Below are positions 48,299-49,945 of a stretch of 64,000 nt of DNA, in pieces. The position numbers were made by a program, and so were the translations under genes. The stretch spans positions 1 through 64,000 of the forward strand of contig NZ_MJAT01000037.1 of the NCBI RefSeq assembly GCF_001742305.1, in the 5' to 3' direction. How positions within the stretch are numbered: position 1 is the stretch's first letter; each line of letters opens with the position of its first letter. Below the pieces are notes generated by a model, which was not told the origin of the DNA, ran no database searches, and was given only the letters and a program-made list of their open reading frames with translations. Source of the stretch: Desulfuribacillus stibiiarsenatis. Its GTDB lineage: Bacteria; Bacillota; Bacilli; Desulfuribacillales; Desulfuribacillaceae.

Positions 48299-48327
48299 TT
48301 TACGGACGGAATCGTGTGTGCTATACT
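48299..48327 (+). promoter_or_regulatory. Promoter of the SCIFF operon
   Basis: TTTACG (48299-48304), 17-base spacer, TATACT (48322-48327), 33 bases before the scfA ATG. Confidence 0.55.
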
Positions 48328-48360: not shown

Positions 48361-48510
48361 ATGAAACACATCAAGATATTAAGTAGGAATACATTACAAG
48401 ATTCAATTCATACAGGTGCTTGTGGCGAATGCCAGACTTCATGCCAATCCGCATGTAAGACATCAGTAACTATTGGAAATCAAGTGTGCCTACAAAAAGA
48501 ACAGAAATAA
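48361..48510 (+). CDS. scfA: SCIFF ranthipeptide precursor (five-cysteine variant)
   Basis: A 49-residue peptide starting MKHIKILSRNTLQDS with AGGAGG upstream. The core is ACGECQTSCQSACKTSVTIG followed by NQVC, matching the 'six cysteines in forty-five residues' family nearly exactly. Cysteines: 21, 24, 28, 32 and 43. The canonical fifth Cys (position 36, in KTSC) is Val here. Cys32 and Thr37, the reported thioether donor and acceptor in characterised SCIFF peptides, are kept with identical numbering. The radical SAM/SPASM maturase gene follows after a weak terminator. The biological role of SCIFF is not settled. Confidence 0.93.
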   Translation: MKHIKILSRNTLQDSIHTGACGECQTSCQSACKTSVTIGNQVCLQKEQK

Positions 48511-48513
48511 TAA

Positions 48514-48540
48514 AGGACCCAATGGCTGGGTCTCTTTTTT
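48514..48540 (+). terminator. Attenuator-type terminator between scfA and scfB
   Basis: GACCCA/TGGGTC with a 5-base loop, extended by AAAG/CTTT with bulges, and T6. It should reduce readthrough so that more precursor than maturase is made. The scfB ribosome site lies beyond it. Confidence 0.75.
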
Positions 48541-48571
48541 CGTAATTCAGAGGAATCAATTTGGAGGGTTT

Positions 48572-49945
48572 ATGGATAATTCAATACATCAATTTCGTGT
48601 GAAAGATAAATTCCTGGTTTTTGATATAGCAAGCAATACATTATTAGAGTTTGACGCATTAAGCTATCGAGTATTAGAGTTGTTCCGATGCGGGCATGAT
48701 ATAGATTCAATTATACAAACGATGAAAACAGAAGGTTTTACAGAGTCTTCTGAAGAAATATCGGATACCTATCAAGATATACTAACATTGAAAAGTGACA
48801 AAGTTATTTTTACTAAAGAAGTCGTGCCAAGCCACTCGCTATTCGGGAATGACACGATTATTAAAGCTATGTGTCTGCATATTGCACATGACTGTAATTT
48901 GCGCTGTAAATATTGCTTTGCTGCTAGTGGACATTTTGGCGGCAATCGAACAATGATTGATGTGGAAACAGGGAAAGCAGCCATCGATTTTTTAATTGAG
49001 CACTCGAAAGGGCGTCAACATATCGAAATCGACTTTTTTGGTGGAGAACCTCTGATGAATATGGAGGTAGTAAAAGAGCTTGTCGATTACGCTAAACAGC
49101 AAGAGAAACAACATCATAAGATTTTCAAACTTACATTAACGACGAATGGACTCCTGTTGAACGAAGAGATACGTGATTATTTAAATGAGCAAGGAATTAG
49201 TTTAGTTCTGAGTCTTGATGGTCGCAAGGAAATAAACGATAAAATGAGACATACATTGGATGGAGAAAGCTGTTACGATGTCATTGTCCCAAATTTGAAA
49301 GAGACTGTAAAAGGCAGAAATCACGATAATTACTATCTACGAGGTACCTATACCAGCGAGAACTTAGATTTTGCGGCAGATGTATTACACATGAGGGATT
49401 TAGGCTTTGAATATATATCTGTTGAGCCAGTTGTTGCACCTGAGAACTTGAGCTATGCATTAACGGAAGAACATGTCGATACAATTCGCAACGAATATCG
49501 AAAGCTTGCGGATGAATATATTGCTTCTAAAGGAACAAATCGAGAGTTCTCTTTCTTTCACTTCGATGTAGATTTAGAAAATGGACCATGTGTCGCTAAG
49601 AGACTTTCAGGTTGTGGTGCAGGTCATCATTATGTGGCAGTTACCCCTGAGGGAGATATATATCCTTGCCATCAATTTGTTGGTAGACAAGAGTTTTTAC
49701 TTGGAAACGTAACCGAAGGCATTACGCAACATCAGTTAATTGAGCAATTTAAGAACAACAATGTATACACGAAAGTAAAGTGTAGAGAATGCTGGGCACG
49801 CTATATGTGTGCTGGTGGTTGCCATGCAAATGCCTATGCGTTTAATCAAGATTTATTAGAACCTTATGAAACAACTTGTGCGATTACGAAAGACCGCTTA
49901 GAAACAGCTTTATATATTAAAGCACTAGAATTAGCTGAAGAGTAA
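48572..49945 (+). CDS. scfB: SCIFF maturase, radical SAM/SPASM protein
   Basis: A 457-residue protein from ATG 48572 (TTGGAGGG upstream). The N-terminal ~90 residues form the RiPP recognition region (HQFRVKDKFLVFDIASNTLLEFD...). The radical SAM cluster motif is CNLRCKYC (~114-121), and the SPASM region includes CGAGHHYVAVTPEGDIYPCHQFVG and CRECWARYMCAGGCHANA for auxiliary clusters. It forms the thioether cross-link in the scfA product. Confidence 0.95.
   Translation: MDNSIHQFRVKDKFLVFDIASNTLLEFDALSYRVLELFRCGHDIDSIIQTMKTEGFTESSEEISDTYQDILTLKSDKVIFTKEVVPSHSLFGNDTIIKAMCLHIAHDCNLRCKYCFAASGHFGGNRTMIDVETGKAAIDFLIEHSKGRQHIEIDFFGGEPLMNMEVVKELVDYAKQQEKQHHKIFKLTLTTNGLLLNEEIRDYLNEQGISLVLSLDGRKEINDKMRHTLDGESCYDVIVPNLKETVKGRNHDNYYLRGTYTSENLDFAADVLHMRDLGFEYISVEPVVAPENLSYALTEEHVDTIRNEYRKLADEYIASKGTNREFSFFHFDVDLENGPCVAKRLSGCGAGHHYVAVTPEGDIYPCHQFVGRQEFLLGNVTEGITQHQLIEQFKNNNVYTKVKCRECWARYMCAGGCHANAYAFNQDLLEPYETTCAITKDRLETALYIKALELAEE

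Follow-up and report, generated by a model that had tools for sequence, protein, structure and literature searches.

The described systems closest to the locus considered here are CteA/CteB (thermocellin) of Clostridium thermocellum and Tte1186a/Tte1186 of Caldanaerobacter subterraneus, with which it shares both its precursor family and its maturase family. In both of these systems, in vitro studies reported a thioether between Cys32 and Thr37 of the precursor (Bruender 2016; Grove 2017, as reviewed in PMC8326336 and PMC8172795), whereas CteA that had been co-expressed with CteB was found to carry a bond from Cys32 to the gamma carbon of Thr34 (Hudson 2019, as reviewed in PMC8326336 and PMC8172795). 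A further ranthipeptide, freyrasin (PapA/PapB of Paenibacillus polymyxa), is produced by a related QhpD-like radical SAM/SPASM enzyme and contains six Cys-X3-Asp links.

According to the reviews, CteA and Tte1186a each have six cysteines, the number that, within ~45 residues, gives the SCIFF family its name. The window, by which we mean the whole 64,000-nucleotide stretch of Desulfuribacillus stibiiarsenatis DNA that was analyzed (37.8% G+C, from an assembly of 3.12 Mb in 39 contigs), encodes a precursor with only five, in which Val replaces Cys36.

The precursor gene, its maturase and their surroundings

The original prediction, that this short open reading frame encodes a SCIFF peptide with five cysteines, is borne out by comparison with the family. 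The peptide (MKHIKILSRNTLQDSIHTGACGECQTSCQSACKTSVTIGNQVCLQKEQK; Table 1) scores 76.9 bits with TIGR03973 (cut-off 50) and 76.4 with the Pfam SCIFF model PF13165 (cut-off 27), and its ATG start codon lies directly downstream of the ribosome-binding site AGGAGGGG. An intact maturase gene begins 61 bases past the stop codon, which places it within the 500 bp that PMC5300114 allowed between a precursor and a TIGR03974 radical SAM maturase. Numbered from Met1, the cysteines occupy residues 21, 24, 28, 32 and 43, and the donor Cys32 and the candidate acceptors Thr34 and Thr37 are all present and carry the numbers reported for them in the reviews of CteA and Tte1186a, as had been predicted for Cys32 and Thr37. 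Because neither of the two family models demands six cysteines, and because 22 of the approximately 307 SCIFFs read in a phylum-wide sample are without Cys36, the six-cysteine count is a descriptive and not a defining feature of the family.

Table 1. Coordinates of features at the SCIFF locus (positions within the window)
Feature	Position	Strand	Basis
Candidate SCIFF promoter: TTTACG, 17 nt, TATACT preceded by TG	48299..48327	+	Consensus scan, 9/12
SCIFF (ScfA) precursor peptide, 49 aa, five Cys	48361..48510	+	TIGR03973, PF13165
Codon 36, GTA = Val; TGY = Cys in most SCIFFs	48466..48468	+	Sequence
Possible attenuator: terminator-like hairpin and T run in the SCIFF-maturase interval	48515..48542	+	Scan
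SCIFF maturase (ScfB), radical SAM/SPASM, 457 aa; CNLRCKYC and SPASM Cys intact	48572..49945	+	TIGR03974, CteB alignment

The maturase scores 597 bits with TIGR03974 (cut-off 425) and aligns over nearly its full length with CteB, whose structure has been solved (PDB 5wgg; E 7e-153); the CxxxCxxC motif of radical SAM enzymes and the cysteines of the SPASM auxiliary clusters are conserved between the two. It does not classify with the freyrasin-type enzymes, in that the PapB model matches it at 272.9, below the cut-off of 340, and the precursor is without any Cys-X3-Asp.

A divergent spoVB-type gene lies upstream of the SCIFF gene, and the maturase is followed by genes for a PF06695 membrane protein and a small acidic protein, secD, secF, a gene for a small membrane protein, and recJ. 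In the only other genome of the order (G001), the order of genes (spoVB, SCIFF, maturase, PF06695 protein, acidic protein, secD, secF, recJ) is identical, indicating that this is a stable chromosomal locus. Taken alone, the candidate promoter is weak, since the scan returned nine such sites in the region against 7.3 expected; a -10-like element, TGCTATACT, occurs at the matching place 5' of the SCIFF gene in both genomes. Both also have a GACCC/GGGTC hairpin with a run of T between precursor and maturase, with different letters in the loop (GACCC...GGGTCTCTTTTTTT in G001). Terminator-like elements occupy this interval in 108 of 239 SCIFF loci, a raw count made without a shuffled control, and, under the same strict scan, in just 4 of the 20 loci whose precursors are without Cys36. 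Such terminators would fit the production of more precursor than enzyme.

Nothing apart from the departure from consensus itself suggests that the window peptide is a decaying precursor or that codon 36 is a sequencing error. The codon, GTA, mismatches TGT and TGC at all three bases, the corresponding codon of G001 is ATG (Met), and the two SCIFF genes, compared over 47 codons, differ synonymously in 20 and by amino acid in 6, as is typical of a gene that is apparently under purifying selection. Together, these three observations exclude sequencing error for practical purposes, and since the maturase is intact and the trait is shared by two further families (f8 and f23), we consider decay or error to be vanishingly improbable. 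The original prediction had itself named two ways in which it could fail, a misread codon and a second SCIFF gene with six cysteines: The codon comparison removes the first, and a search of the whole genome, which is 99.9% complete, removes the second, having found no further SCIFF, such that the copy in the window is the single one. An alignment across relatives, proposed at the same time as a check, assigns Val36 to a lineage trait that includes Met36 in G001, Ile36 in f8 and Leu36 in f23.

Residue 36 across the SCIFF family

In a phylum-wide sample, 319 of 398 genomes carry a SCIFF, and by reading 168 of the peptides in full and the cores from 158 genomes by eye, two sets that partly overlap, we covered about 307 genomes. 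The 22 peptides without Cys36 include those with Ile in ten genomes of family f72, Leu in families f80, f137 and f174, and Val in the window. Families f8 and f23, which are related and belong to the same class as the window, have Ile36 and Leu36, respectively, and a third family of this class (f48) has Ala36. A tally of 263 peptides, which is an uneven sample in that 80 were picked as the nearest matches to the window peptide, returned Cys at position 36 in 240 and Ala, Ile, Leu, Val or Met in the other 23, in agreement with the assertion that Val36 stands where the family has its fifth cysteine.

The remainder of the peptide is far more constant. Cys24, Cys28, Cys32, Cys43, Lys33 and Ser35 are invariant among the 263 tallied peptides, and Cys21 has a single exception, a His in L012 (genome G128). 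Thr37 is retained in all 23 of the tallied peptides without Cys36 and likewise in additional Ile36 and Leu36 peptides from beyond the tally, and every peptide without Cys36 retains Cys21, Cys24, Cys28 and Cys43. To judge from these sequences, Cys36 is the one cysteine that evolution discards, the others being almost invariant. Within the open-access literature, we found no paper describing the SCIFFs without Cys36 of families f1, f8, f23, f48, f72, f80, f137 and f174, which resemble the window peptide in having an aliphatic residue 36 alongside the same five cysteines and Thr37, and differ from it in which aliphatic residue (V, M, I, L or A) is present and, in L006, by an additional Ser34. L258, one of the 23, still totals six cysteines owing to an additional one in its leader.

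How often residue 36 has changed was assessed on maturase trees. The state of this residue changes five times on a tree of 96 maturases and five times on a careful tree of 62 rows, in which a single origin was rejected (p-AU 0.023), and four times on a tree that includes outgroups; because deep branches in these trees are poorly supported, the number of changes is approximate. Outgroup rooting was also tried as a means of telling loss of Cys36 from gain and was set aside, the outgroup branches being far too long. The window's order clusters with f8 and f23 in the 96-maturase tree (99% SH-aLRT), and the Val, Met, Ile and Leu found in these groups may derive from one event, which f48 may or may not share; sampling of these nearer relatives amounts to two genomes for the order and one for f23. 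Thus, the natural variant that had been proposed is real, but it is not an isolated one, Cys36 having been replaced in four to five lineages and always by an aliphatic residue. As for the two consequences that had been drawn from it, the repeated replacement of Cys36 alongside an intact maturase makes it a fair inference that this cysteine would be dispensable for maturation, whereas for the mature molecule the one difference shown is the trivial one of having a thiol fewer.

Wherever residue 36 was not Cys among all of the SCIFFs that we read, it was one of Val, Met, Ile, Leu and Ala, and none had at this position an amino acid whose codons are a single step from those of Cys (Ser, Tyr, Phe, Gly, Arg or Trp). 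Under a null model based on codon shares, the probability that five lineages would all be aliphatic is about 0.003. Because replacement is by aliphatic residues only, the single-step neighbors of Cys, Ser included, being absent, the pattern suggests that it is the hydrophobicity of residue 36, and not a thiol, that these systems need; alternatively, position 36 may serve a role in the mature peptide that is unrelated to hydrophobicity.

Another possible explanation is that Cys36 is structural in six-cysteine SCIFFs, as a disulfide partner or a metal ligand, and that the five-cysteine forms are differently folded and retain four free thiols (21, 24, 28 and 43) once Cys32 has been used. The retention of precisely these four cysteines in all peptides without Cys36 is as this model would have it, as is the replacement of Cys21 by His in L012, a swap that is common at metal sites. 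But Cys36 has repeatedly been lost alone, with no partner cysteine disappearing alongside it, which speaks against an obligatory disulfide pair, and when we searched the maturases for residues that co-vary with Cys36, none exceeded random expectation. Of the five lineages without Cys36, four have lost Glu353, but a column of this kind arose in 72 of 1000 random draws; the corresponding pair test is without power. We therefore regard a structural Cys36 as improbable. Residue 353 itself (49628-49630) is the Glu of a GCGxGHEY motif near a SPASM cysteine, and is His, Gln, Asn or Ser in those four lineages. In the crystal structure of CteB, an auxiliary cluster has its open iron occupied by the cysteine of CteA that is equivalent to Cys21 (PMC8326336, PMC6231123).

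The acceptor of the cross-link

The original prediction treated Cys32 and Thr37 as the reported thioether pair, which is accurate for the Tte1186a and CteA studies, but this assignment is contested by the Cys32-Thr34 bond of Hudson 2019. Since it has both threonines, the window peptide cannot discriminate between them, and the more informative peptides lie elsewhere in the family.

Two kinds of precursor each have only one of the two candidate threonines. Thirteen peptides that combine Thr34 and Cys36 with Gly37 form one clade, which includes members of f4 and f22, families labeled Paenibacillaceae-like by inference from their peptides. On the maturase tree, this clade consists of L004, L007-L012, L126, L146, L147, L170, L175 and L176, and because its members from the window's class nest among Lachnospiraceae-like sequences, its distribution suggests horizontal transfer. 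The second kind is represented by L006 (genome G023, reverse strand; TIGR03973 46.5 against the cut-off of 50), which has Ser34, Leu36 and Thr37 and is the only peptide read from which Thr34 is absent. Glycine cannot take the place of Thr37 as an acceptor, and serine has no gamma carbon; as such, the Gly37 clade excludes the Thr37 bond and L006 excludes a Thr34 gamma-carbon bond, each for itself.

Because Thr34 is more conserved than Thr37, a Cys32-Thr34 bond is favored as the general one, although the lineage of L006, being unable to form it, weighs against Thr34 as a universal acceptor. The converse would be that the window peptide and all five-cysteine forms are cross-linked between Cys32 and Thr37, and that Thr37 is kept as acceptor whenever residue 36 is not Cys. 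This would accord with the in vitro assignments (Bruender 2016 and Grove 2017, as reviewed in PMC8326336 and PMC8172795), with the retention of Thr37 in every peptide without Cys36, Gly37 being found solely alongside Cys36, and with the persistence of Thr37 in L006 despite its Ser34. However, since the Gly37 peptides are a single clade, their coupling to Cys36 counts as one event; Thr34 is retained in all but one peptide, and Thr37 is not retained to this extent; and it was Thr34 that Hudson 2019 identified (per PMC8326336 and PMC8172795). On balance, we view a Thr37 bond in these peptides as unlikely, if somewhat less so than a structural Cys36.

If the Gly37/Thr34 and the Ser34/Thr37 types are both matured, different lineages of the maturase family would have switched to different acceptors, and precursors without Cys36 could represent a simplified core that acts through the four free thiols left to it (21, 24, 28 and 43, all almost invariant), for example as a metal or redox site, a combination to which we would give perhaps one chance in a few.

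A precursor outside of the 263-peptide tally, L247 (genome G462, reverse strand), has Ser32 instead of the donor cysteine and Ser37 (GGCGECQTSCQSASKTSCSIVNQKCEQCQE), along with an extra cysteine near its end, and is adjoined by a gene for a full-length maturase of 462 aa. If this system is real, the published bond would be impossible in it, making it a stranger case than the SCIFF in the window.

A probable hydrophobic position in a five-cysteine SCIFF

The explanation that we consider probable is that the window encodes a SCIFF (ranthipeptide) system of the ordinary sort whose precursor has five cysteines, residue 36 serving as a hydrophobic position and not as a cross-link donor. By homology, the maturase would bind the leader of the precursor (approximately residues 1-18), abstract a hydrogen from a threonine, and join the sulfur of Cys32 to that residue, the acceptor being, family-wide, more likely Thr34, through its gamma carbon, than Thr37. 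Residue 36 would have to be hydrophobic, a need presumably satisfied by Cys in most lineages and elsewhere by Val, Met, Ile, Leu or Ala.

On the strength of its sequence, the window peptide is confirmed as a true SCIFF and as a recurrent variant without Cys36. The five-cysteine form is a modest variant, and it is chiefly informative about the residues that the maturase needs. Variants across the family show which cysteine evolution can spare, this being residue 36, repeatedly, and they also constitute natural test peptides that separate a Cys32-Thr34 from a Cys32-Thr37 bond.
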